The notes under the pieces were generated by a model. The model was not told where the DNA came from. It saw nothing but the letters and a program-made list of their open reading frames with translations, and did not search any database. Source: Acerihabitans arboris (lineage in GTDB: Bacteria; Pseudomonadota; Gammaproteobacteria; Enterobacterales; Enterobacteriaceae). Taken from it: a DNA stretch of 64,000 nucleotides. The position numbers were made by a program, and so were the translations under genes. Positions within the stretch are counted from its first letter, which is position 1. Each line of letters begins with the position of its first letter. Of the stretch, positions 20,187 through 34,890 are shown piece by piece. The stretch is from contig NZ_WUBS01000009.1 of assembly GCF_010131535.1 (NCBI RefSeq), positions 62,001 through 126,000 on the forward strand, written 5' to 3'.

Positions 20187-20234
20187 TTAATAGCAATCCA
20201 TAACGGTTTGGTAGTCTGGCTCGGGAGTAAATAT

Positions 20235-21068
20235 ATGGCACAGGCGATGTTAAAACTGGCGCACCCCGGCCAACCCGGACAGCTGTCGGTACCGCAAACC
20301 AAGGTATTGGCGGTGAAGGGACTCAACAAGCATTTCCAGGCGCAGAATAACGTGCTGAACGATATTAACTTTGATCTGTACGCCGGTGAATTTGTCGCGG
20401 TGATCGGCCGCTCCGGCGCGGGAAAATCCACCCTGCTGCATATCCTCAACGGCTCCCTGCCTGCCTCCGGCGGCGAAATTCTACATTACCCGCCGGACGG
20501 CGCCATCCTGGATATCGCCCGGCTGTCCCCACGCCAGATGCGCCGGTGGCGCGCGCAGTGCGGCATGATCTACCAGGATTTTTGCCTGGTGCCGCGCCTT
20601 GACGTGTTAACCAACGTCCTGTTGGGACGGCTGAGCCAAACCTCGACGTTAAAATCGCTGTTTAAGATATTTGACGATAAAGACCGCGCCAGGGCGATTG
20701 AGCTTTTGCAGTGGCTGAATATGTTGCCCCATGCCCTGCAGCGGGCGGAGCATCTCTCGGGCGGGCAAATGCAAAGGGTGGCCATTTGCCGCGCCTTGAT
20801 GCAAAACCCGAAAATAATGCTGGCGGATGAACCGGTGGCTTCCCTCGATCCCAAGAATACCCGCCGTATCATGGATGCGCTGCAAAAGGTGGCTGAAAAT
20901 AATATTTCCGTGGTGATAAATCTGCATTCCGTCGAATTAGTTAAAGAATACTGTACGCGGGTAATAGGTATAGCACAGGGACGGATTGTGTATGACGGCC
21001 AGCCCGACGGGCTTGATGAGCAGGTCTTGCAGATATTATATGGCGATGAAATCGCCCAGGTTCATTAA
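20235..21068 (+). CDS. phnC: Phosphonate ABC transporter ATP-binding protein PhnC
   Basis: 277 residues (E. coli 262) from the ATG at 20235, which follows GGGAG by seven bases; the frame extends to a TTG at 20208 without SD. Walker [13 protein letters not shown]-loop [20 protein letters not shown], signature [15 protein letters not shown], Walker [14 protein letters not shown] and the switch His in VINLHSVEL are present. It energises phosphonate import with PhnD and the two PhnE subunits. Confidence 0.94.
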
Positions 21069-21161
21069 GTTTCACAATAACATCCGCTGACGGATCAGCG
21101 CAGGCATTAATTAACCAGTGATTGTTTTCATTTCCCCCATAGACACACAAAGGCTATTTTA

Positions 21162-22094
21162 ATGAAAAAAACATATCTTCTGATAAACATCCTGGCCGGC
21201 GCCATCATGTCCTTTAATGCCGGTGCGGCCGATGCCCCGAAAGAACTTAACCTGGGTATCCTCGGCGGGCAGAATGCGACACAGCAAATTGGCGACAATA
21301 TGTGTGTGAAAGACTTCCTGGATAAAAAATTAAATGTCGATACCAAATTGCGCAACTCCTCCGATTATTCCGGCGTAATCCAGGGCTTATTAGGCGAAAA
21401 GGTGGATATGGTGTTGAGCATGTCGCCGTCATCTTTTGCCTCGGTGTATATCGCTAATCCCAACGCGGTAGATCTGGCGGGCATTGTGGTGGACGATTCC
21501 GACCAATCACGAGGTTACCATTCGGTGGTGGTCGTTAAAGCCGACAGCCCATACCAAAAACTGGAAGATTTAAAAGGTCAATCTTTTGGTTTTGCCGATC
21601 AGGATTCAACGTCGGGCTATTTGATACCGGATCACGTGTTCAAAAAGCAATTTGGCGGCAATATCGATAATAAATACAATAACTTTTTCTCCAGCGTTAC
21701 CTTTTCCGGCGGCCATGAGCAGGACATTCTTGGCGTGCTGAACGGTCAGTTCGAGGGTGCGGTGACCTGGGCATCGATGGTGGGCGATTACAATACCGGT
21801 TATAACACCGGCGCCTTTGTCCGCCTGATCAAAGCGGACCATCCCGATTTGATGAAACAAATCCGCATTATCTGGCAATCGCCGCTGATCCCCAACGGTC
21901 CGATATTAGTGCGCCACTCCCTGCCGGCGGATTTTAAGGCCAAACTGGTCGACGCCATCCAGCAGTTGGATAAACAAGACCACCAATGCTTTATCAAGGC
22001 GGTGGGAGGCAAGCAGCATATCGCCCCCACGTCCCTGAAGGAATTCCAGGATATTATCGACCTGAAACGCGATTTGATTAAAGGCAATCGCTAA
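21162..22094 (+). CDS. phnD: Phosphonate-binding periplasmic protein PhnD
   Basis: 310 residues with a cleavable signal peptide (MKKTYLLINILAGAIMSFNAGAADA). The mature protein has the PhnD/SsuA-like fold: LNLGILGGQNATQQIGDN at the first strand, the ligand-binding DMVLSMSPSSFASVYIANP segment, YHSVVVVKADSP and the DQDSTSGYLIP motif whose Ser-Thr-Ser contacts the phosphonate. It sits 93 bases after phnC and 68 before phnE1. Confidence 0.94.
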   Translation: MKKTYLLINILAGAIMSFNAGAADAPKELNLGILGGQNATQQIGDNMCVKDFLDKKLNVDTKLRNSSDYSGVIQGLLGEKVDMVLSMSPSSFASVYIANPNAVDLAGIVVDDSDQSRGYHSVVVVKADSPYQKLEDLKGQSFGFADQDSTSGYLIPDHVFKKQFGGNIDNKYNNFFSSVTFSGGHEQDILGVLNGQFEGAVTWASMVGDYNTGYNTGAFVRLIKADHPDLMKQIRIIWQSPLIPNGPILVRHSLPADFKAKLVDAIQQLDKQDHQCFIKAVGGKQHIAPTSLKEFQDIIDLKRDLIKGNR

Positions 22095-22162
22095 GGCGCG
22101 ATGTTGTTAACCCATGCCGGCCCGTCTGTTGCAGGCGGCCGGCATTTAACCGATGGCCTATT

Positions 22163-23026
22163 TTGAATACTGATTTCAATCACTATTACCAGCAGGTGCG
22201 GCGCAAACATAAGCGCGACACGCTGTTATGGTCCGGGGCGTTGGTGGTGCTGTATCTCGGCGCCGGCAATATCGCCGAATTCAATCTGTACGCCGTATGG
22301 GTTGCCATCCCTCATTTCTTTGACTATCTAGCGCAAACGATACCCGTCCTCCGCTGGCAGGTATTGTTGGCCGACCGCCATACCCTGGGATCGCTGTCTT
22401 ACTGGGGTTACCGGCTGCCTGTCCAGCTGCCGCTGATTTGGGATACGGTGCAGCTGGCGCTGGCCTCGACGATGATTTCGGTACTGGTGGCGAGCGCGCT
22501 GGCGTTTCTGGCGGCCAACAATACCCATAGTCCCCTGCCGGTGCGTATTGCCCTGCGCACGCTGGTGGCGTTCCTGCGCACCATGCCGGAGCTGGCCTGG
22601 GCGGTGATGTTTGTGATGGCGTTTGGTATCGGCGCGTTCCCCGGTTTCCTGACGCTGGCGGTGCATACCGTCGGCAGCCTGACCAAACTGTTTTATGAAT
22701 CCATTGAGTCCGCCTCGGATAAACCCGTGCGCGGACTGGCCGCCTGCGGCGCGGGCACTTTGCAGCGCATGCGCTTCGGCCTGTGGCCGCAGGTGAAACC
22801 GATATTCTTGTCCTACAGCTTTATGCGCCTGGAAGTCAATTTCCGCCTGTCGACCATCCTTGGGCTGGTGGGGGCGGGGGGCATCGGCCAGGAACTGATG
22901 ACCAATATTAAACTCGATCAGTACGATCAGGTCAGCATGACGCTGCTGTTGATTATCCTGGTGGTGGCATTGCTGGATTATATTTCCGCCAGGCTGCGCA
23001 AATGGGTAGTGGAGGGAAAGGACTGA
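22163..23026 (+). CDS. phnE: Phosphonate ABC permease PhnE, first copy
   Basis: 287 residues. The start is a TTG at 22163, because no in-frame ATG or GTG precedes the conserved N-terminus; a six-codon frame ATG..TGA at 22153 overlaps it and could reinitiate. The protein has six hydrophobic segments and the permease EAA-type loop GLAACGAGTLQRMRFGLWPQ followed by LGLVGAGGIGQEL. FLRTMPELAWAVMFVMAFGIGAFPG is typical of PhnE. It overlaps the second permease as TGATG. Confidence 0.9.
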   Translation: MNTDFNHYYQQVRRKHKRDTLLWSGALVVLYLGAGNIAEFNLYAVWVAIPHFFDYLAQTIPVLRWQVLLADRHTLGSLSYWGYRLPVQLPLIWDTVQLALASTMISVLVASALAFLAANNTHSPLPVRIALRTLVAFLRTMPELAWAVMFVMAFGIGAFPGFLTLAVHTVGSLTKLFYESIESASDKPVRGLAACGAGTLQRMRFGLWPQVKPIFLSYSFMRLEVNFRLSTILGLVGAGGIGQELMTNIKLDQYDQVSMTLLLIILVVALLDYISARLRKWVVEGKD

Positions 23027-23937
23027 TGTTAACCAATACGTTGCCGCCACAGGCGCTGGCGCAATTCAAACGCCAGCACCGGGAGATCTTTGCCCGCCAA
23101 AACCGCTACCTGCGCCGGGTGGGGCTGATCGCCGCCGCCGTAGCGCTGTATTATATCTATTTTTTTTCGGCGTTCGGCCTGCCGTGGCCGCGTTTTTTGC
23201 TCGGCTGCCAGCAAATCGGCCACTACCTGGCGCGCATGCTGGTCTGGCATAATGTGGCCAACTGGCCGTTTTCCTACTATCTCGGACAGATATTCCTTAC
23301 CATCGCCATCGTCTGGGTAGGGACCCTTACCGCGACCCTGATTGCCCTGCCCCTGTCTTTCCTGGCGGCGCGCAATGTGATGTCCACGCCGGCGCTGCGG
23401 CCGATAGCCCGGGTGGTCCGCCACGCGTTTGATATTTTTCGCGGTATCGACATGGCCATCTGGGGAATGGTGTTCGTGCGCGCGGTCGGCATGGGACCGC
23501 TGGCCGGGGTAATGGCGATTATCGTGCAGGATGTCGGCCTGCTCGGCAAACTGTATGCCGAGGGACATGAGGCGGTGGATAAATTACCCGGTCGCGGCCT
23601 GGGCGCGGTGGGCGCCAACTATGTGCAGAAACAGCGGTTCGGCATCTATACGCAATCTTTTCCCACCTTCCTGGCGCTCAGCCTGTACCAGATCGAGTCC
23701 AATACCCGCTCAGCCGCGGTGCTGGGTTTTGTCGGCGCGGGCGGGGTAGGCCTGGTGTACGCTGAAAACATGCGCCTGTGGAATTGGGATGTGGTGATGT
23801 TTATCACCCTGGTGCTGGTGGCGATCGTGATGGTAATGGATAAGATCTCGGCCATGCTGCGCAAAAAATATATCACCGGCCAAGAGATCCCATTGTTCCA
23901 GCCGTCGCCGCCGCAGCTAACCCCCGACCAGCCATAG
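23026..23937 (+). CDS. phnE: Phosphonate ABC permease PhnE, second copy
   Basis: 303 residues from the ATG at 23026 overlapping the previous stop. Six membrane segments; conserved FDIFRGIDMAIWGMVFVRAVG, the coupling loop VGANYVQKQRFGIYTQSFP and VLGFVGAGGVGLVYAENMRL. It is clearly paralogous to the first PhnE, so the importer is probably a PhnE1-PhnE2 heterodimer, as in several other proteobacteria. It is the last gene of the rightward unit and is convergent with allophanate hydrolase. Confidence 0.91.
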   Translation: MLTNTLPPQALAQFKRQHREIFARQNRYLRRVGLIAAAVALYYIYFFSAFGLPWPRFLLGCQQIGHYLARMLVWHNVANWPFSYYLGQIFLTIAIVWVGTLTATLIALPLSFLAARNVMSTPALRPIARVVRHAFDIFRGIDMAIWGMVFVRAVGMGPLAGVMAIIVQDVGLLGKLYAEGHEAVDKLPGRGLGAVGANYVQKQRFGIYTQSFPTFLALSLYQIESNTRSAAVLGFVGAGGVGLVYAENMRLWNWDVVMFITLVLVAIVMVMDKISAMLRKKYITGQEIPLFQPSPPQLTPDQP

Positions 23938-24019: not shown

Positions 24020-25849
24020 TCAGGCAAGCGGACCCGCCGCCTGCGCCTGGTCGGCGAGGTAAGCTCTCCAGCCGCCGTAGGCGGTAATATCGAGCGCGCT
24101 GCCCAGCGCCAGCGGTTCGCAGATAAAGCCCTTGACGCACCTGCCGTCGGCAAGCGTCAGGGTACCGATGCCCAGCGGCGCCGGGATCTCGGCCACGAAC
24201 TCGCCGAAGCGCGCCAGCGGAATATCCCACAGCTCCACTACAATGCCGGCCCCGGTGTCGGCTTTAACCAGCCCGGGCTTGGGCGGGCGGGTATCGGCCA
24301 GGGCGTACAGCCGGTAGCAGGGGGCGGTTTCGCTGGCTTCCACCAACACCGCGCCGCGCGAGGTGAGCTGCCCGTTCAGCGGCATGCCGGTGAGGTGAGC
24401 GCCCACTACCGCCAGCCGCACCTGATCGGCCGCCGGTGCTTCAACCGCCGCGGCGGCCGCGGGCGGCAGGCGGCGTCCGGTGGCTCCAAGCGGCAGGTCC
24501 AGCCCCTGCTGCCAGCGCCGGCCAAAGCTTGCCAGCGCGCGGTCATGCCATGCCGGCGCAATCAGGGTAATCCCGGCCGGCAGCCCGTCGTCGCGCAGCC
24601 CAGCGGGCAGCGCCAGCGCGCATAAATCCGCCAGGTTGGTAAAGTTGGTATAGGTGCCGAACTGCGAGTTGTACAGCACCGGCTCCCGGCGCATCTCTTC
24701 CAGGGTACGGATGGTGGGAGAAGTGGGTACTAACAACGCGTCAAAAGGCGCCAGCGCCTGGTTGATGGTACGGGCCAGTTCGGCGCGTTGATACTCCGCC
24801 CGCCAGGCGTCGCAGGCGCTGTAATTATCGCCGTTGGCGACAATGGCCGCCACCACCGGATCCATGCTTTCGGGGTGCGCGCGCATAATATCGCCCACCG
24901 CCACGGTGCGCTCCGCCACCCAGGCGCCGGCATACAGCTGTTCGGCCAGGCGGCGGAACGGGGTAAAGTCGATGGGCGCAAGCGCCACGCCCTGCGCTTC
25001 CAGCCCGCGCAGCGCGGCGGTAAACGCCCGTTCGGCGTCCTTATCGCCAAAAAACTCCAGCTGGTCCGGCACGGCAAAACGGGGCGCGGCCCCCATCGCC
25101 GCCGGCGCGGTGGCGGGATGCGGGCGTGAATACGCGTCGCGGGCATCATAACCGCCGGCGATCCCGGCGATGCGATGCGTGTCGCCGACGGTGAGGGCAA
25201 AAATCGATACGCAGTCGTTGAGCCGGCAGGCGGGCAATACGCCGCGGGCGGACAGCCAGCCTTTGGTGGGTTTCAGGCCGACAATATTGTTAAAACCCGC
25301 GGGCACCCGGCCGGATCCGGCGGTATCGGTGCCCAGCGCAAAGGGCACCAGGCCGCGCGCCACCGCCGACGCCGACCCGGAGCTGGAGCCGCCGCTGACA
25401 TAGGCCGGATTAAAGGTATTGGGCACCGCGCCATAGGGTGAACGCGTGCCCACCAGGCCGGTGGCGAACTGGTCCAGATTGGTTTTGCCGATGACCACCG
25501 CGCCGGCCGCCCGCAGGCGGGCCACCACCTCCGCGTCTTCTCCCGCCTGGCGGATAAATGCCGGGCAAGCGGCGCTGGTGGGCCAGCCGCCCACGTCGAT
25601 ATTATCCTTGACCGCAAAAGGAATGCCGTACAGGGGCAGGGCGCGCGGGTCGCCGCCGGCCGCCGCCACCCGTTCGCCGAGTTCCGCCAACTGCAGCTCA
25701 AGCAGGGCCTCGTCGGGCAGGTAAAGCCAGGCGGCGTCATCCATGCTTAAGCTGGCCAGCAGAGCGGCAAGGACCGGTTTTACCCCGTCGGGGTGCCGTT
25801 GATAGAACTGTTGCCACTCTGCAAGGGTGCCGGCGGTGATTGGCTGCAT
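24020..25849 (-). CDS. atzF: Allophanate hydrolase (AtzF-type)
   Basis: 609 residues, the normal AtzF length. It hydrolyses allophanate to ammonia and CO2. The amidase-signature domain (1-about 440) has the catalytic Lys in FAVKDNIDVGG, the cis-Ser in SGGSSSGSASAVA and the nucleophile Ser in LGTDTAGSGRVPAG. The C-terminal domain (about 470-600; LAVVGAHLTGMPLNGQL, YALADTRPPKPGL) is the AtzF-specific module. It is the last gene of the leftward operon, 137 bases after the carboxylase, separated by strong repeats. Confidence 0.94.
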   Translation of the reverse strand: MQPITAGTLAEWQQFYQRHPDGVKPVLAALLASLSMDDAAWLYLPDEALLELQLAELGERVAAAGGDPRALPLYGIPFAVKDNIDVGGWPTSAACPAFIRQAGEDAEVVARLRAAGAVVIGKTNLDQFATGLVGTRSPYGAVPNTFNPAYVSGGSSSGSASAVARGLVPFALGTDTAGSGRVPAGFNNIVGLKPTKGWLSARGVLPACRLNDCVSIFALTVGDTHRIAGIAGGYDARDAYSRPHPATAPAAMGAAPRFAVPDQLEFFGDKDAERAFTAALRGLEAQGVALAPIDFTPFRRLAEQLYAGAWVAERTVAVGDIMRAHPESMDPVVAAIVANGDNYSACDAWRAEYQRAELARTINQALAPFDALLVPTSPTIRTLEEMRREPVLYNSQFGTYTNFTNLADLCALALPAGLRDDGLPAGITLIAPAWHDRALASFGRRWQQGLDLPLGATGRRLPPAAAAAVEAPAADQVRLAVVGAHLTGMPLNGQLTSRGAVLVEASETAPCYRLYALADTRPPKPGLVKADTGAGIVVELWDIPLARFGEFVAEIPAPLGIGTLTLADGRCVKGFICEPLALGSALDITAYGGWRAYLADQAQAAGPLA

Positions 25850-25883
25850 AATTATGATCCTATCGGGTAAGAGTGATAAATAT

Positions 25884-25979
25884 TTTCACGCCGGCGACAT
25901 GCGCCGGCGTGAAACCGGCCGTTATCGGCAAATGCGCCGGGTCTCGCGCCGGCGCGCAGCCGGCCGTTGCCGGCAAACG
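25884..25979. repeat. Intra-operon inverted and direct repeats
   Basis: A 13-bp perfect inverted repeat TTTCACGCCGGCG / CGCCGGCGTGAAA (25884-25896 with 25902-25914, five-base loop) is followed by two copies of a 20-base repeat CCGGCCGTTRYCGGCAAAYG at 25915 and 25960. Between them lies another GC-rich self-complementary run. Together they fill almost the whole gap between the carboxylase and allophanate hydrolase genes. They could form a stable mRNA structure that tunes atzF expression or belong to a dispersed palindromic element. Confidence 0.75.
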
Positions 25980-25986
25980 GGCGGTG

Positions 25987-28900
25987 TCAGTCCTGGTCCT
26001 CTTCCAGCAACAGCAGCAGCTGGCCCGCCTGCACCTGGTGCCCCGCGGCGCGCACGATACGCCGCACCCGCCCGCCCACGGGCGCCAGGATGGGAATTTC
26101 CATTTTCATCGATTCCAGTATGCCCAGCGTTTGCCCCGTGCTAACCCGATCGCCGGGCGAGACCTGCCATTGCCATACGTTGCCGGCGACCTGGCTGTCC
26201 ACGCCGAAATAGCCGTCAGGTATGGTTTCCACATCCGGCGGCGCTTCGTCCCGCAGCGCGCTGTCATAGGTGAACTGGCCGTCGGCGCGCCAGCGCGCCA
26301 GCTCCGCGTCAAACGCCCGCTGGCGCCGCTGCTGGAACAGGTCGATTTGCCCTTGCTGGTCGGCCAGCATGGCCTGGTAATCGGCCAGCCGGAAGCTGCC
26401 CGGCTCGGTGCGCAGGGAGTAAAGGCCATAGGGGAAGCGTTCGCGGATTTCCAGCAGTTCCCGCTGGCTGACCGGATAAAAGCGGATTTGATCAAAAAAG
26501 CGCAGCAGCCAGGGCAGGGTGAAATCGGCGGTTGCGCGATCGCGGTTCCACATTTGCAGCGTGCGGCCGACAAACTGATAACCGCCGGGTCCTTCCATGC
26601 CGTAGACACAAAGATAGGCGCCGCCGATGCCCACCGAATTTTCCGCCGTCCAGGTGCGGGCCGGGTTGTATTTGGTGGTGACCAGCCGGTGTCGCGGGTC
26701 CAGCGGCGTGGCCACCGGCGCGCCGAGGTACACATCCCCCAGCCCCATCACCAGATATCGGGCGTTAAATACCGTTTCCTTCACCTGCGCCACCGACTCC
26801 AGCCCGTTAATGCGGCGAATAAATTCAATATTGTCCGGGCACCAGGGCGCGCCGGGGCGCACCGACTGCATATATTTCCCGATGGCCTGGCGGCAGGCGT
26901 CGTCGTCCCAGCTGAGCGGCAGCCAGACGGTACGCGACGGCACCTCGACCTGGCGCAGATCGCCCAGCGTCCGCTCGGCCAGTTGCAAATGCGCGATCAG
27001 CTTGCCGCGCGGGCAGGCGAGGCTGTCGAAATGCACCTGCAGCGAGCGGATGCCCGGCGTCAGCTCCTGTACCCCGGGCAGGGGGTGCTGTTCCAGCCAC
27101 TGCATCAGCGCATGGGCGCGAAAGCGCAGCGCGATATCCAGCACCTGCTCGCCGTACTCCACCAGTAAAAAACGATCGCCGGCGGCGCGGTAGGTGACCT
27201 CCGGCACCTCCGGCTGCGCCGGCTGGCGCCAGAGGATGGGTGATTCCCGATGGGCGGCCGCGTCGCCGGGCGGGGGCGCCGTCAGCGTGGCAAAGCTGGT
27301 TTCCGCCTGACGCGCCAGCCGGTCGGCCTGCTCCAGGGATACCGGCATAAAACGGATCCGGTCGCCGGCGGCGAGCTGCCCCAGTTGCCATAAATCGGCG
27401 TGGATCACCGTGGCCGGGCAGACAAAACCGCCCAGCGACGGGCCGTCGGGGCCGAGTATCACCGGCATGTCGCCGGTAAAATCCACCGCGCCGAACGCAT
27501 AGGCGTTATCGTGGATATTGGAGGGGTGCATGCCCGCCTCGCCGCCGTCGCCGCGCGCCCACCGGGGTCTGGGGCCGATCAGGCGGATACCGGTGCGGCT
27601 GGAATTGTAATGCACCTGCCAGGTGGCGGCAAAAAAGCGCTCGATATCCTCATGGGTAAAAAACTCCGGCGCGCCGTGGGGGCCGTAAATCACCCGCAGG
27701 GTGCGCACGCCGCTCAGCACGGGCGAGAGGGCGGGCGACAGGGTATTGGCCAGCGCCTTGCCCGGCGCGGCCAGATGCAATACGTCGCCGCTGCGCAACG
27801 CCCGTCCGGCGTGGCCGCCGAAACGGCCCAGGGTAAAGGTGCTGCGGCTGCCGAGGTAGTCGGGGCACAATAGGCCCCCCGCCAGCAGCAGGTAGCTGCG
27901 GCAGCCTGTTTCGCCGACGTTGCCGAGCGAGAGCGTTTGCCCGGAGCGGGCGTGGCACACCTGCCACAGCGGCAGCGGTTCGCCGTCCAGGGTGGCGTCA
28001 ATCGGCGCGCCGGTAATCGCCAGCGCGCAGTCGTGGTTAAAGCGCAGCACCGGCCCGCGCAGGGTAATTTCCAGTCCTGCGGCGCGGACGTCGTTGCCCA
28101 GCAGGCGGTTGCCGAGACGGAACGAGCGGTTGTCGAACGGGCCTGAGGGCGGCACGCCCACATGCCAGTAGCCGGCGCGGCCGGGGAAATCCTGGATGCT
28201 GGTCAGGGTGCCGGGAGACAGCACGTCCAGCGTGCGCGGCAGATATGACATCCGCGCCAGGGTGGACGTCAGTACCCGGCCGTCGCGCACCTGGGGCAGG
28301 CTGAGCAATTGGCGCAGGTATTCCAGGTTGGTCTCGATGCCGTACAGTTGGGTGTTATCCAGCGCGTCGGCCAGCGCGGCCAGCGCGGTCGGCCGATCGC
28401 GGCCATGGGTAATCACCTTGGCCAGCATCGGGTCATACCAGGGCGATATTTCGCAGCCGGTGCCAATCCAGCTGTCGATGCGCAGCTCAGCGTCCGGCGC
28501 CCGCGGCGCAAACTCCACATGGCTAAGCAGCCCGGCGCACGGGCGGAACGCCTTGGCCGGATCCTCGGCATAAATGCGTACCTGGACGGCGTGGCCGCGC
28601 GGTTCGCCTACCGCCAGCCGGTCGAGCGGCGGCAGGGTTTGCGCGCCCAGCTCCACCATCCAGCGCACGATATCCACGCCGTACACCATTTCGGTGACGC
28701 CGTGCTCCACCTGCAGCCGGGTATTCACCTCAAGGAAATAGAACTCGCCGCTGCCGACGTCATAGACATATTCCACCGTGCCGGCGCTGCGGTAGCAGGC
28801 CGCTTCGCCAAGGCGCACCGCGGTATCGCGCAGCGCCCGGCGCACGTGGTCGGGCAGATGCGGCGCCGGCGTCTCCTCCAGTACCTTTTGGTTACGGCGC

Positions 28901-29592
28901 TGGGCCGAGCAGTCGCGCTCGCCCAGGGCGATGACCTTGCCCGCGCCGTCGCCGAAGATCTGCACTTCAAGATGGCGCGCCGCCGCGACAAATTTTTCCA
29001 GGAATACGCCGTCATCGGCAAAATTATTGCCGGCCAGCCGCTTCACCCGGGTAAACGCCTCGCGCAGGTCGCCGGCGTTTTCGCAGCGCTGCATGCCGAT
29101 GCCGCCGCCGCCGGCGGTGCTTTTCAACATTACCGGATAACCGATACGCCCGGCCTCGGCCAGCGCCTGGTCAAGATCGCGCAGCAAGCCGCTGCCCGGC
29201 AGCAGGGGCACCCCCGCCTGCAGCGCCAGCGCCCGCGCGCGGTGCTTCAGGCCGAAGGTGGCCATTTGCCGAGGCGTAGGGCCGAGGAACACCAGGTTTT
29301 CTTGCTGGCAGCGGCCGACAAATTCGGCGTTTTCACTGAGGAACCCGTAGCCGGGATGCACCGCCCCGGCGCCGGAATTCACGGCGATAGCCATTAACTT
29401 ATCCTGATCGAGATAGGTGTCGCGCACGTTGCCGTCGCCAAGGCTATGGGCCTCGTCCGCCAGGCGTACATGCAGCGAATGGCGATCCGCTTCGGCATAG
29501 ACCGCCACCGACCGGATGCCCATGGCTTTAAGCGTGCGGATAATCCGCACCGCGATGGCACCGCGATTGGCAACCAGGATGCATTTGAACAT
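25987..29592 (-). CDS. Biotin-dependent urea/guanidine carboxylase
   Basis: 1201 residues from the ATG at 29592. Domains in order: biotin carboxylase (about 1-450; CILVANRGAIAVRIIRTLK, HPGYGFLSENAEF, the glycine-rich STAGGGGIGMQRC, and FLEVNTRLQVEHGVTE), a KipA/allophanate-subunit-2-like carboxyltransferase half (about 460-770; SIQDFPGRAGYWHVGVPPSG), a KipI-like half (about 840-1040; FLLVEYGEQVLDIALRF) and a C-terminal biotinyl domain with E-S-M-K-M, the biotin Lys near 1163. Family members carboxylate urea to allophanate or guanidine to carboxyguanidine. The ykkC riboswitch and the two DUF1989 genes in the same operon favour guanidine; sequence alone does not prove it. Confidence 0.92.
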   Translation of the reverse strand: MFKCILVANRGAIAVRIIRTLKAMGIRSVAVYAEADRHSLHVRLADEAHSLGDGNVRDTYLDQDKLMAIAVNSGAGAVHPGYGFLSENAEFVGRCQQENLVFLGPTPRQMATFGLKHRARALALQAGVPLLPGSGLLRDLDQALAEAGRIGYPVMLKSTAGGGGIGMQRCENAGDLREAFTRVKRLAGNNFADDGVFLEKFVAAARHLEVQIFGDGAGKVIALGERDCSAQRRNQKVLEETPAPHLPDHVRRALRDTAVRLGEAACYRSAGTVEYVYDVGSGEFYFLEVNTRLQVEHGVTEMVYGVDIVRWMVELGAQTLPPLDRLAVGEPRGHAVQVRIYAEDPAKAFRPCAGLLSHVEFAPRAPDAELRIDSWIGTGCEISPWYDPMLAKVITHGRDRPTALAALADALDNTQLYGIETNLEYLRQLLSLPQVRDGRVLTSTLARMSYLPRTLDVLSPGTLTSIQDFPGRAGYWHVGVPPSGPFDNRSFRLGNRLLGNDVRAAGLEITLRGPVLRFNHDCALAITGAPIDATLDGEPLPLWQVCHARSGQTLSLGNVGETGCRSYLLLAGGLLCPDYLGSRSTFTLGRFGGHAGRALRSGDVLHLAAPGKALANTLSPALSPVLSGVRTLRVIYGPHGAPEFFTHEDIERFFAATWQVHYNSSRTGIRLIGPRPRWARGDGGEAGMHPSNIHDNAYAFGAVDFTGDMPVILGPDGPSLGGFVCPATVIHADLWQLGQLAAGDRIRFMPVSLEQADRLARQAETSFATLTAPPPGDAAAHRESPILWRQPAQPEVPEVTYRAAGDRFLLVEYGEQVLDIALRFRAHALMQWLEQHPLPGVQELTPGIRSLQVHFDSLACPRGKLIAHLQLAERTLGDLRQVEVPSRTVWLPLSWDDDACRQAIGKYMQSVRPGAPWCPDNIEFIRRINGLESVAQVKETVFNARYLVMGLGDVYLGAPVATPLDPRHRLVTTKYNPARTWTAENSVGIGGAYLCVYGMEGPGGYQFVGRTLQMWNRDRATADFTLPWLLRFFDQIRFYPVSQRELLEIRERFPYGLYSLRTEPGSFRLADYQAMLADQQGQIDLFQQRRQRAFDAELARWRADGQFTYDSALRDEAPPDVETIPDGYFGVDSQVAGNVWQWQVSPGDRVSTGQTLGILESMKMEIPILAPVGGRVRRIVRAAGHQVQAGQLLLLLEEDQD

Positions 29593-29713
29593 GATTGACC
29601 CTCTGTCTGTTTGAACGGCAGGTCGTCCTGCGAAAATACATAGCGCGGTGAATAGCGGGACGTCCCGTGGCGCGCATTGACGGGCCGCTGCCATACGGCC
29701 GGCGTAACCGTCA

Positions 29714-30349
29714 TTACCAGACACTGACCTCTATCGGGGTCGGGTTATAACCGTTGCATGGGTTATTGAGCTGGGGGCAGTTGGAAATCAATACTAATAC
29801 GTTCATTCTTGCTATCAGCTCAACATACTTGCCCGGCGCCGAGATGCCGTCCTCGAACGTCAGACCGCCGCCGGCGGTGACCGGCACGTTCATGAAAAAA
29901 TTGATATTGTGGGCAATGTCGCGTTTGGTCAGGCCGTATTCCGGATGTTCGCCGACCGCCAGCATCCAGCTGTCGCGACAGTTGTGCATATGGCGTTTTT
30001 CCAGCGAGTAGCGCACCGTATTGCTTTCGGCGGCGCAGGCGCCGCCCAGGGTATCGTGACGGCCGCAGGTATCGGCGACGATCTCCAGCATCGGCCGATC
30101 GTCGTTGGAGCGCAGCACGCTGCCGGTGGACAGGAACAGATTGTTCTGGCCGCGCACCGTATCCATCATGCTGTAGCGCTCGGCGGTATCGTCGGCGTTG
30201 AAAAACAGCGTATCCGCCGCCTGGTTGCCTTCGCAATCGGTAATGCGCAGCGTGCGCCCGCGGTCCAGGCGATGGAGCCAGTAATCACCGGCGTTGATGA
30301 TTTGGCGATAAAGCGCATCCTGCGGGCGCAGGGAGCTGGTCTTGATCAT
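29714..30349 (-). CDS. Urea-carboxylase-associated DUF1989 protein, probable carboxyguanidine deiminase subunit
   Basis: 211 residues. It shares with its upstream neighbour the DUF1989 pattern: an N-terminal G[15 protein letters not shown] segment, then [36 protein letters not shown], a [11 protein letters not shown] stretch and the closing [20 protein letters not shown] with paired Cys. Paralogous pairs of this type were shown elsewhere to deiminate carboxyguanidine to allophanate. Its start overlaps the upstream gene as ATGA, consistent with two subunits of one enzyme. Confidence 0.85.
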
Positions 30350-31107
30350 GATGGCGCTCCTGAACGGGGAAGGGCTAACCCGGCCATGGGTAGCCCGGCA
30401 TAGTAGAGATCGTTATTGGCCAGGCCGCGGCGGTTCTCCTCATGGCGCAGGCAATGCGCCGGCAGTGGCGCCACCTGCGGCGACAGGGTGATTTGCACCG
30501 GCGCGCGCGGATAGGCGCCCGCGCGATTTAGCGGATGCGGGCAGGTATGCAGCAAGACCAGCGTATCCATGGCGAAACGCAGCGTGACGCCGGCGCCCGG
30601 CAGGGTTTGCGGTTCCAGGCGCAGTTCGCCCTCGTCGTCGGCGCGCACCTGTGAAAACAGGTTCAGGCAGGCGGCCATGTCCCGTTTGCCCAGGCCGTAT
30701 TTCGCCAGTTCCACCAGGAAACTGTCATAGCCGTTTTGATGCCGTTCGTTGCGGGCCTGCTGATAGCCGGACGCGCCGAACCGTCGTTCGGTCAGCCCGG
30801 CGTTCATGGCGCCGCACACCGTGTCATGCCAGCCGGCATCATCCTGTTCGATAGCGCAGAAGATACGGCCCATATCGGAGTACAGGCAGTGTCCGGCGGT
30901 CAGGCGGAAGGTATGCTGGCATTTGAGCGTATCCGGGGCGTTGTAGCGCTCCAGCAGGTTTTCCGGGTTATAGAACAGCATACCGACATTGGCGCCGCCG
31001 TCGATATCGGTCAGGCGCAGCGCAGCGCCGCGCCGCACGCGCAGCGACCAGTGGGCGCCCGCCGGCAGCGTCGTGCTGTATGGGCTTTGCATGGTTTCAG
31101 TCATCAT
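30346..31107 (-). CDS. Urea-carboxylase-associated DUF1989 protein, probable partner subunit
   Basis: 253 residues from the ATG at 31107. A paralogue of the following gene: [62 protein letters not shown] and [20 protein letters not shown] correspond position by position. It begins 18 bases after the transporter ATPase stop and overlaps the next gene by four bases. With its partner it probably forms a carboxyguanidine deiminase; which copy carries the catalytic site cannot be decided by eye. Confidence 0.83.
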
Positions 31108-31125
31108 TCCTCCAGGTAACAAAAG

Positions 31126-31905
31126 TCAGGCCTCGCGCCCGGGCGGGTAAATCATCTCGCTGACCCGCTGCTCAACGCCGGCCGGTTGACGGTCCAGCTG
31201 AATGTCGTAGGTGATGCTGGCGCCCCAGGCGTCGGGGGCCTGCGCGTCGTGATGGATTTTGTCGAATACCCACAGGCGGGATCCCAGCGAAAAACCCTCT
31301 GTTAAATCGTGGGTGATCATAAAAATGGTCAGGTGGTGCCGGCGCCATAAATCGGTCAGCAGCTGATGCATATCGCGCCGGATACCGGGATCGAGCGCGC
31401 CGAAGGGCTCGTCGAGCAGCAGGATGCGCGGTTTTTTAATCAGCGACTGCGCCAGCGCCAGCCGTTGCTGCATGCCGCCGGACAGCTGGTGGGGATACTT
31501 GGCGGCGGCGTGCTCCAGTCCCACCTGCGCCAGCATGGCCCGCGCCCGGTCATTTATAGCGCGCCGCCGGCGTCCCCATACGCGCCCCAGCCAGCGCGCC
31601 TGGACAAACTCCTCGCCCAGCATGACGTTCTCCAGCGCCGTAAGGTGCGGAAACACCGAATAGCGCTGGAACACCACGCCGCGATCCTCCCCCGGCTCCT
31701 GGGGAATAGGCTTGCCGTCCAGCAACAGCTTGCCCCGGCTTGGCGGCTCGATGCCCAGCATCATGTTGAGGAAGGTGGTCTTGCCGCAGCCGGACGCGCC
31801 GACGATGGACACAAATTCCCCTTCCGCCACCTCGGCGTTCATGCGCTCCAGCACCACCTGTTGACCGTAGCGTTTTTCCAGCTGGCGCATACTCAGTAAA
31901 CTCAT
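31126..31905 (-). CDS. Guanidine/urea-associated ABC transporter ATP-binding protein
   Basis: 259 residues, NitT/TauT-type ATPase. Walker A GASGCGKTTFLNMML, Q-loop VFQRYSVFPHLTALENVMLG, signature [16 protein letters not shown], Walker B ILLLDEPFGALDPGI and switch ITHDLTEGF are complete. A family-specific insertion ARWLGRVWGRRRRAINDRA lies after the Q-loop. The C-terminal 50 residues (DAWGASITYDIQLDRQP) are a tail typical of the urea-carboxylase-linked members. It is flanked by the permease (10-base gap) and the DUF1989 pair. Confidence 0.9.
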   Translation of the reverse strand: MSLLSMRQLEKRYGQQVVLERMNAEVAEGEFVSIVGASGCGKTTFLNMMLGIEPPSRGKLLLDGKPIPQEPGEDRGVVFQRYSVFPHLTALENVMLGEEFVQARWLGRVWGRRRRAINDRARAMLAQVGLEHAAAKYPHQLSGGMQQRLALAQSLIKKPRILLLDEPFGALDPGIRRDMHQLLTDLWRRHHLTIFMITHDLTEGFSLGSRLWVFDKIHHDAQAPDAWGASITYDIQLDRQPAGVEQRVSEMIYPPGREA

Positions 31906-31915
31906 CGGAGCACCC

Positions 31916-32728
31916 TTAATTAACGTGATACCAGGGCCACAGGCGGCGGCTAGCCAGCCGCAGCAGCGCGTCCAGGGCGAAGGCCAGCAAGGTTATCCAG
32001 GCAACGTAAGGCAGGATGACGTCCATCGCCAGATAGCGGCGCATCAGGAAAATGCGGTAGCCCAGCCCGTCGGTGGACGCGATGGCTTCGGCGGCGATCA
32101 GGAATAGCCAGGCGGACCCCAGCGCCAGGCGCACCGCGTCCAGCAGGCGCGGCAGCAGCTGCGGCAGGATCACCCGCCACAGGATCTGCGCGCTGTTGCC
32201 GCTGAGCGTCTGCGCCTTGATCAGCTGCTCCCGCGGAATGGCCTGCACCCGCAGCTGCAGATCGCGCGCCACGCAGGGCGTAACGCCGATGACGATCAGC
32301 ACCACCTTCGACAGTTCGCCCAGGCCGAAGCAGATAAACAGGATGGGCAGAATTGCCAGCGGCGGTATCAAGGCGCCCAGCACCACCAGCGGCGAAAACA
32401 GCGCCCGGATCGCCGGCAGCGCGCCGCAAAACAGGCCGAACAGCAGGCCGAGCAGGGCGCTGATGCCAATGCCGGCGAGCAGCCGCGCCAGGCTGGCGGC
32501 GGTATCGCTCCATAACAGGTATTGGCCGGTGCGCGGGTTGGGCTGCAACGCCATCCGGTAAATGGCGTCGCCCATGCTGTTGAACCCCGGCAACAGCTTA
32601 TCGAGCGGGTTCGCCGCCAGGCGGGCATCCGAGGCAACCAGGTACACCAGCACCAGTAGCAGCATCGGCAGCATGCCCAGCAGGCCGCGCGACAGGCGCT
32701 GAGGCTGGTAGTTGATCATCTTGCGCAT
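31916..32728 (-). CDS. Guanidine/urea-associated ABC transporter permease
   Basis: 270 residues with about six hydrophobic segments (LLGMLPMLLLVLVYLVA at the N-terminus). The EAA-type cytoplasmic loop reads AQTLSGNSAQILWRVILPQLLPRLL, followed by LALGSAWLFLIAAEAIAS, as in SsuC/TauC/NrtB permeases. It lies 15 bases downstream of the binding-protein gene and 10 before the ATPase gene, in the same operon under the riboswitch. Confidence 0.9.
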   Translation of the reverse strand: MRKMINYQPQRLSRGLLGMLPMLLLVLVYLVASDARLAANPLDKLLPGFNSMGDAIYRMALQPNPRTGQYLLWSDTAASLARLLAGIGISALLGLLFGLFCGALPAIRALFSPLVVLGALIPPLAILPILFICFGLGELSKVVLIVIGVTPCVARDLQLRVQAIPREQLIKAQTLSGNSAQILWRVILPQLLPRLLDAVRLALGSAWLFLIAAEAIASTDGLGYRIFLMRRYLAMDVILPYVAWITLLAFALDALLRLASRRLWPWYHVN

Positions 32729-32743
32729 CGGACAAGCCCCTGG

Positions 32744-33811
32744 TTATAACTGGCCGGCGGCGGCCAGTTTGACGAACTCATCGCTAAAGCGCAGCTTGAC
32801 GTTGGCGCTGTCGCCCCAGACGCCCGCCGGCGAGCTGATTCCCACCACATCGGCGCTGGGCGCGGCATCGCCCAGCAGTCCGTGCTTAAAGGAGAACTCC
32901 GCCACGCCGCGCATGGTGGTGAGCAGTTGCTTGCCCTGGACGAACTCCAGCGTCTTTTTCGGGTCGGTAAACAGGAAGGTGGCCGCCAGCTGTTCGTCAA
33001 ATCCCTTCAGGTCGGTGCCCGAGCTTTGCCCCATCATGGCCCGGGCTTTTTTAGCGGTATCGCCGTCGCCGCTCATGGTGCGCAGGGTTTCATACCAGGC
33101 GCCGGTCAACGCCTTGCCCAGCTCCGGGTGCGCCTTCAGGGTGGTGGTGTTGACCACCAGCAGATCGAGGATTTCGCCCGGGACTTGGGCAGACGAGAAG
33201 ATTTCATGACTGTCGGGCTGCTGTTTGGCCGCCGCCAGCAGCGGATTCCAGGTCACGATAGCCTTGACGTCCGGGGTGCCGAAGGCCGCCACCAGATCGG
33301 CGTCGGCGGTATTAATCACCTTCACATCCTTTTCGCTCATGCCGTTTTTCTCCAGCGCCCGCGCCAGCAGGTAATGGGACACTGAGAGCTGCACCAGGTT
33401 GACGGGCTGGCCCTTGAGGGAACGGATATCGCCCCGGCCTTTAAGCAGGATGCCGTCGTTGCCGTTGGAGTAGTCGCCGACAATCAGCGCGGTACTGTCG
33501 ACGCCGCCGGCGGCGGGGATGGTCAATGCGTCCATATTGGTCATGGTGCAGCCGGCAAAGCCGCCGGCGGTGTACTGATTCACCGATTCGATGTAATCGT
33601 TGACCTGGACGAACTGGATATCGATACCGTATTTATCGGCCCATTTTTTTACGATGCCGGTTTGCTGGGCATAATCCCAGGGCATCCATCCGGCGTAAAT
33701 GGACCAGCAGATTTTAAAGGCGGGTTTGTCGGCTGCCAGGGCGGCCGGGCCGTAAAGCATTCCGAGGCATAAGGCCCCGAGCAGCAGCAGTCGATTGAAA
33801 ATAGATATCAT
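32744..33811 (-). CDS. Guanidine/urea-associated ABC transporter substrate-binding protein
   Basis: 355 residues, first gene of the operon. The signal peptide is MISIFNRLLLLGALCLGMLYG with cleavage near ALAAD. The mature part has the NitT/TauT binding-protein fold (FKICWSIYAGWMPWDYAQQTG, the FVQVNDYIESVNQYTAGGFAG segment, TMTNMDALTIPAAGGVDST). This is the subfamily found with urea/guanidine carboxylases. The start ATG is about 50 bases after the end of the riboswitch aptamer. Confidence 0.9.
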   Translation of the reverse strand: MISIFNRLLLLGALCLGMLYGPAALAADKPAFKICWSIYAGWMPWDYAQQTGIVKKWADKYGIDIQFVQVNDYIESVNQYTAGGFAGCTMTNMDALTIPAAGGVDSTALIVGDYSNGNDGILLKGRGDIRSLKGQPVNLVQLSVSHYLLARALEKNGMSEKDVKVINTADADLVAAFGTPDVKAIVTWNPLLAAAKQQPDSHEIFSSAQVPGEILDLLVVNTTTLKAHPELGKALTGAWYETLRTMSGDGDTAKKARAMMGQSSGTDLKGFDEQLAATFLFTDPKKTLEFVQGKQLLTTMRGVAEFSFKHGLLGDAAPSADVVGISSPAGVWGDSANVKLRFSDEFVKLAAAGQL

Positions 33812-33861: not shown

Positions 33862-34000
33862 AGAACAGGTTCTCGCTTTGGCCTCCCGGGCTTTTATCCC
33901 GCCGTGTAACCGCCAGAGGGTGTGAACCGTCAGTGGTGGTCGGTCGCTCTCGGACCAGTCGTCTGCCGTGGCAGACCGGAACCCTAGTGACCCGTTGCAA
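33862..34000 (-). promoter_or_regulatory. ykkC-type guanidine-I riboswitch
   Basis: Reading the minus strand, the three invariant blocks of the guanidine-I aptamer occur in order: CTAGGGTTCCG (33987..33977), CTGGTCCGAGAG (33958..33947), and ACACGGCGGGATAAAAGCC followed by CGGGAG (33907..33883). A variable stem (GTCTGCCACGGCAGAC) lies between the first two and another between the last two. The class senses guanidinium and turns on detoxification or catabolic genes. Here it precedes the transporter-carboxylase operon. The expression platform is unclear; a CTCC-containing segment downstream could pair with the SD of the first gene. Confidence 0.92.
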
Positions 34001-34333: not shown

Positions 34334-34404
34334 GAAGGCGAGATTCACCGACGCCTTCAGGTTTGAGCTTTTGAATGTGCTAGACGATATTCAGGAGGTT
34401 AACC
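34334..34404 (+). promoter_or_regulatory. Structured hsp20 leader, possible RNA thermometer
   Basis: The leader has a hairpin GAAGGCG / CGCCTTC (34334-34340 with 34352-34358). A second, weaker element places GTGCT upstream of the SD AGGAGG (34392-34397), similar in layout to the UYGCU-SD pairing of ROSE thermometers that control Hsp20 genes. The pairing is inferred by eye, not folded. Confidence 0.35.
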
Positions 34405-34890
34405 ATGGCACTAAAAACCTTATCCGTAATTCCATCCTTTACCGATTCGTTTTTCGGCGATCGGTTCGACCGTATCGACCGGCTGTTCAGCCAGCTTACC
34501 GGGGATATGCCGCTTTCGGCGACGCCGTCCTATGATATCCGCAGGTATGGCGATAACCGTTACGATTTAACGCTCAGCGTCCCCGGCTGGAGCCAGGACG
34601 AACTGGATATCAGCGCCCAGGGCGGCCAGTTGATCATCAGCGGCAAACGTAATGAAGAAAAAAATGCCCAAGAGCAGGAAGGCTGGCTATACCGCGGCAT
34701 CAGCCGCACGGACTTCTCCCTCAGCTACCGGCTGCCGGAACATGTGAAAGTCGAGGGGGCCGAACTTGACAAGGGTCTTTTAACGGTGAGCCTGCTGCAG
34801 GACATCCCGGAAACCGAAAAACCGAAAAAAATAACCATCCGATATCGCGACGCCAATGCGCCAAAAGCACTGGAACATGATTTAGCCTGA
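34405..34890 (+). CDS. Small heat-shock protein Hsp20 (IbpA-like)
   Basis: 161 residues. N-terminal LSVIPSFTDSFFGDRFDRIDRLFSQL and SYDIRRYGDNRYDLTLSVPG lead into an alpha-crystallin domain (about 38-130), with GWSQDELDISAQGGQLIISG, the GWLYRGISRTDFSLSYRLPEHV strand and the ELDKGLLTVSL end. It resembles IbpA/IbpB but is more divergent than those, so it is probably an additional class A Hsp20. It acts as an ATP-independent holdase in the cytoplasm. SD AGGAGG is well placed; a sigma-32 promoter precedes it and a strong terminator follows, so it is monocistronic. Confidence 0.93.
   Translation: MALKTLSVIPSFTDSFFGDRFDRIDRLFSQLTGDMPLSATPSYDIRRYGDNRYDLTLSVPGWSQDELDISAQGGQLIISGKRNEEKNAQEQEGWLYRGISRTDFSLSYRLPEHVKVEGAELDKGLLTVSLLQDIPETEKPKKITIRYRDANAPKALEHDLA

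Follow-up and report, generated by a model that had tools for sequence, protein, structure and literature searches.

A predicted guanidine assimilation operon of Acerihabitans arboris and a candidate Guanidine-II riboswitch variant before its carboxylase gene

Genes and RNA elements of the operon

In a 64,000-nucleotide stretch of the Acerihabitans arboris genome (contig NZ_WUBS01000009.1, positions 62,001 to 126,000; the whole stretch is called the window, and coordinates are counted from its first base), we identified seven consecutive genes on the minus strand, running from 33811 to 24020, that very probably form an operon for guanidine assimilation. The first three encode an ATP-binding cassette (ABC) transporter, consisting of a substrate-binding protein (SBP; 32744-33811; TIGR03427, 522.9 bits, cut-off 333.9), a permease (31916-32728; PF00528, 62.5 bits, cut-off 26.4) and an ATPase (31126-31905; PF00005, 118.5 bits, cut-off 25). 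Judged from its context, the SBP is a probable component of a guanidine importer. Two genes of the DUF1989 family follow, one at 30346-31122 (PF09347, 198.6 bits; TIGR03425 UAAP1, 289.5 bits, cut-off 205.95) and one at 29714-30349 (PF09347, 228.1 bits; TIGR03424 UAAP2, 321.8 bits, cut-off 284.7). We take UAAP1 to be CgdA and UAAP2 to be CgdB, and the two products are referred to as CgdA-like and CgdB-like putative carboxyguanidine deiminase subunits. The sixth gene (25987-29592) encodes a fused carboxylase with biotin carboxylase, carboxyltransferase and biotin carrier parts and a biotin-site motif (TIGR02712 urea carboxylase, 1791 bits, cut-off 1303.85). Its open reading frame as listed starts with GTG at 29724, inside the preceding cgdB-like gene; translation probably begins at the ATG at 29592, giving a product of 1201 amino acids that begins MFKCILVANRG. 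With this start, a gap of 121 nt separates the carboxylase gene from the cgdB-like gene. The last gene (24020-25849) encodes an allophanate hydrolase of the AtzF type with its C-terminal domain (TIGR02713, 810.8 bits, cut-off 511.05; PF21986, 168.8 bits). A preliminary description of the locus, made from the DNA alone, had given the same order from binding protein to allophanate hydrolase, and family matches on the minus strand confirmed all seven genes.

The operon is preceded by a Guanidine-I (ykkC) riboswitch aptamer on the minus strand at 33881-33998, which matches the full RF00442 model (1-107) with 89.9 bits (gathering score 63). The riboswitch mentioned in the preliminary description is thus real. 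Among the matches listed for the genome (150 of 347 first-look candidates scored) it was the only one, with no second Guanidine-I riboswitch. Two further elements, both absent from the preliminary description, lie within the operon on the minus strand: a Guanidine-II-like element at 29616-29669, in the gap between the cgdB-like and carboxylase genes, and, between the carboxylase gene and atzF, a 13-pair hairpin (25884-25914) within a gap of 137 nt. The latter came from a scan for terminator-like sites that returned a total of 11 against a mean of 9.1 in shuffled sequence, which supports it weakly; it is a possible terminator or processing site.

Substrate specificity of the carboxylase

The carboxylase was aligned to the urea amidolyase of Kluyveromyces lactis (5i8i); positions were counted along this alignment and the residues then confirmed in the sequence. 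Asp748 of the listed reading frame stands opposite Asn1330, and Asp997, in a GLGDV motif, supplies the conserved Asp of K. lactis position 1584. An Asp at position 1330 is the published rule for telling guanidine carboxylase from urea carboxylase (PMC11410670), and a review likewise gives Asp for guanidine carboxylase and Asn for urea carboxylase (PMC12186494). By this rule the enzyme is predicted to be a guanidine carboxylase, and the comparison of active-site residues that the preliminary description had proposed comes out on the guanidine side. Among the best 80 of 582 loci found through CgdB, an Asp at the 1330 position was present in 77, and three short loci (L055, L059, and L067) gave no match. 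This count was obtained with a pattern anchored on the preceding motif, which replaced a first version that was too narrow (7/80). The catalytic Asp was found in 76 of the 80 relatives by a loose pattern and in 34 by a narrower one.

The genome (5.64 Mb in 56 contigs) contains only two DUF1989 matches, both within the operon, and one urease alpha gene. Apart from the carboxylase, the only CT_A_B match is a frame of 337 amino acids on another contig, which we take, because of its length, to be a 5-oxoprolinase subunit. In a set of 60 genomes including this one, a CgdB match at E <= 0.001 was found in 14, and in eight of these, again including this one, the best match was at least 63% identical; among five genomes of the same genus, only G005 had a match at this level.

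The NCBIfam models give the parts of the operon urea names, all above their cut-offs (urea carboxylase, the urea amidolyase associated proteins UAAP1 and UAAP2, and putative urea ABC transporter SBP), so that default annotation would mislead, as the preliminary description had warned. The guanidine pathway that it proposed instead is supported by the Guanidine-I riboswitch above threshold, by UAAP1 and UAAP2 over their cut-offs and by the Asp of the carboxylase. On the strength of these sequence features we put the probability that the locus is a guanidine assimilation operon at roughly 95%. Some points weigh against this. The specificity rule depends on enzymes already published, and the relatives were picked through CgdB, so that the sample has no control set of the Asn type and the 77 of 80 is an association and not a controlled test. 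The terminator-like scan listed no site on the minus strand between the Guanidine-I riboswitch and the first gene, and the hairpin before atzF may mean that this gene is expressed apart from the rest of the operon.

The Guanidine-II-like element before the carboxylase gene

The Guanidine-II-like element consists of two hairpins, CGGG[ACGU]CCCG (P1) and GCAGG[ACGA]CCUGC (P2), with the loops given in brackets. Two hairpins with ACG-type loops before a carboxylase or exporter gene are as expected for Guanidine-II; the consensus ACGR is not present in both loops, the P1 loop being ACGU. The Rfam model RF01068 gives the element 17.4 bits, below the gathering score of 32, and several other places in the genome do at least equally well; no Guanidine-II above the Rfam threshold was among the matches listed for the genome (150 of 688 first-look candidates scored). 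We also used a model, R1, for which we selected 45 of 61 distinct sequences no longer than 60 bases, dropping the other 16 only for a shorter alignment. With R1 the element scores 27.5 bits (E 0.0008 in the window), and genome-wide it was the only match listed at E <= 1 (E 0.07; 150 of 2793 candidates scored). By comparison, the Escherichia coli exporter element, whose P1 loop is ACGA (PMC12117010), scores 27.3 bits. The low end of R1 fails to separate real elements from chance, as the exporter leader L128 scores 12.2 bits and L123 and L124, which showed no gca or gdx frame immediately downstream, score 12.0 and 13.3 bits.

Both hairpins were found downstream of cgdB in 75 of the 80 relatives with a pattern that left loop position 4 open, and five were without the pair; a shorter search gave 74, L031 being added by looking further downstream. 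In these 75 the P1 loop is ACGA in 67 and ACGG in 8, and so ACGR throughout, while the P2 loop is ACGA in 61 and ACGG in 14. In the 45 sequences of R1, the P1 and P2 stems pair in 90.7% of cells, compared with 29 to 50% when slid, and the covariation score of 0.501 (0.148 in shuffles) was equalled in none of 500 shuffles. Counts of pairs with both sides changed (7; shuffles 6.9) and of further pair types (25; shuffles 23.3) were not in excess in the same sequences, and the outermost P2 pair is unpaired in 30 of the 45.

Minimum-energy folding of this stretch of the window predicts no P2; the 3' side of P2 is paired with a GGGUC that precedes the start codon. Of three relatives folded alongside, L008 and L015 form P2. 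The fold without P2 could be a sign of decay. Alternatively, it could represent the off state in the un-masking model put forward for this class of riboswitch (PMC12508155).

Pyrimidine P1 loops within the genus

Among the Guanidine-II-type leaders that we read in the genus, four have a pyrimidine at P1 loop position 4, namely U before the carboxylase genes of the window and of G005, U before an exporter gene elsewhere in the A. arboris genome, and C before the exporter gene of G001. The A. arboris exporter leader (L113, C1:349296-349340) is a Guanidine-II-like element with a P1 loop of ACGU, located before a gene of the small multidrug resistance family (Gdx type), and it scores 27.4 bits with Rfam (gathering 32). 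Canonical exporter leaders occur in three genomes of the genus, G002, G004, and G005. The G001 exporter is 77% identical to that of A. arboris, whereas those of G002, G004, and G005 are 42 to 51% identical and therefore probably represent another paralogue.

Loop patterns were surveyed in 392 genomes of the family, including that of A. arboris. The ACGR pattern matched in 208 of them. The ACGU pattern gave five matches in four genomes. Three of the matches precede gca or gdx, and these all belong to this genus; the two others, in G002 and G154, showed no frame of either gene immediately downstream. The ACGC pattern matched in four genomes; one match is the G001 exporter leader, and R1 gives 8.1 bits to one of the remaining three and nothing to the other two. 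Reversed control patterns also hit many genomes, at a higher frequency than the ACGU and ACGC patterns, so that the counts alone prove nothing and the weight rests on the position before gca and gdx.

A tentative reading, somewhat less likely than not, is that the genus has a working variant of Guanidine-II, with ACGU or ACGC in P1, before the guanidine carboxylase gene and one type of exporter gene, beside canonical elements on another type of exporter gene. Such a variant would be hidden by the Rfam threshold, and with purine-purine stacking between the kissing loops lost, its affinity or its choice of ligand would change. The crystal structure shows an extrahelical base at loop position 4, stacked on its partner (PMC5486947). 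Purines should then be favoured at this position, and a pyrimidine could weaken binding without abolishing it. It is also possible, if somewhat doubtful, that the element is a decayed, inactive remnant and that Guanidine-I alone controls the operon. The departure of ACGU from the ACGR consensus, the Rfam score below gathering and the predicted fold lacking P2, which L008 and L015 form, would all agree with such a remnant. However, G005 retains both hairpins and the ACGU loop in a gap that differs over much of its length from that of the window, and two exporter leaders of the genus also carry pyrimidines. The extrahelical position of the base also speaks for the element, and so does the possible off state, which could account for the missing P2. 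No report of an ACGU loop variant of Guanidine-II was found in the literature searched, which was mostly without subscription papers. One paper found in the variant search does contain ACGU, as part of a hatchet ribozyme, and is unrelated.

Proposed pathway and alternative substrates

In the proposed pathway, guanidine would bind the leading Guanidine-I riboswitch and turn on the genes of the operon, and the ABC importer would take up guanidine from outside the cell. The biotin carboxylase would convert guanidine to carboxyguanidine at the expense of ATP, the CgdA/CgdB pair would deiminate carboxyguanidine to allophanate, and allophanate hydrolase would release ammonia and CO2. The Guanidine-II-like element, if active, would probably tune translation of the carboxylase gene.

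That the operon serves a substituted guanidine such as methylguanidine besides guanidine itself is improbable. The published Guanidine-II in the same position does not discriminate between guanidine and methylguanidine (PMC12508155), which would suit such a role, but in Vreelandella boliviensis the mgdH and mgdL genes sit between gca and atzF, and the corresponding 137-nt gap is too short for either, the rest of the genome not having been searched for these two genes. A true urea amidolyase system, in which urea would be converted to allophanate and hydrolyzed with the DUF1989 genes as accessories, is suggested by the default names of the carboxylase (TIGR02712) and the SBP (TIGR03427), but is rejected as extremely unlikely on the residue rule (the substrate position holds Asp, not Asn), the leading Guanidine-I riboswitch and the presence of both DUF1989 genes, and the genome also has its urease alpha gene elsewhere.

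Checked by the residue rule, the operon shows cleanly how guanidine metabolism can be hidden behind urea names in databases. What deserves further attention is the small riboswitch variant: if the element works, its pyrimidine P1 loop offers a natural way to probe the role of the position-4 purine in Guanidine-II, and surveys made at the Rfam threshold can miss members of the class.

Neighboring features

On the plus strand, a match to the FourU RNA thermometer (34337-34411; 35.7 bits, gathering 60; E 0.0006) lies where an Hsp20-family gene (34405-34890) begins, a fitting place for an element that scores below threshold. A set of ABC transporter genes lies on the other side of the operon, also on the plus strand (20208-23937), and encodes an SBP of the phosphonate-binding type (PF12974), an ATPase and a permease; its fourth open reading frame gave no Pfam match.

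Comparison with known systems

The pathway, and this gene order with its riboswitches, are already in print (PMC11410670, PMC12186494, PMC12508155). The operon type is thus known, and the P1 loop variant is the only part for which no report was found. V. boliviensis, which grows on guanidine, has the same ABC importer genes, cgdA, cgdB, gca, and atzF; Guanidine-I leads its operon, and Guanidine-II is placed between cgdB and gca (PMC12508155). The A. arboris operon differs from it in its gap between gca and atzF, which cannot accommodate mgdH and mgdL, and in the P1 loop of the internal element, which is ACGU here and ACGA in the V. boliviensis locus (L048). In operons of Raoultella, Erwinia, and Klebsiella, the importer and deiminase genes likewise stand behind Guanidine-I, and the carboxylase and allophanate hydrolase genes behind Guanidine-II; in the accessible part of that account, no difference from the present operon was seen other than the loop variant (PMC12186494). 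The internal element resembles Guanidine-II (mini-ykkC, RF01068) in that a pair of G+C-rich hairpins, each with an ACGN loop, precedes gca, and differs from it in having a pyrimidine for a purine at P1 loop position 4 and a score below gathering.

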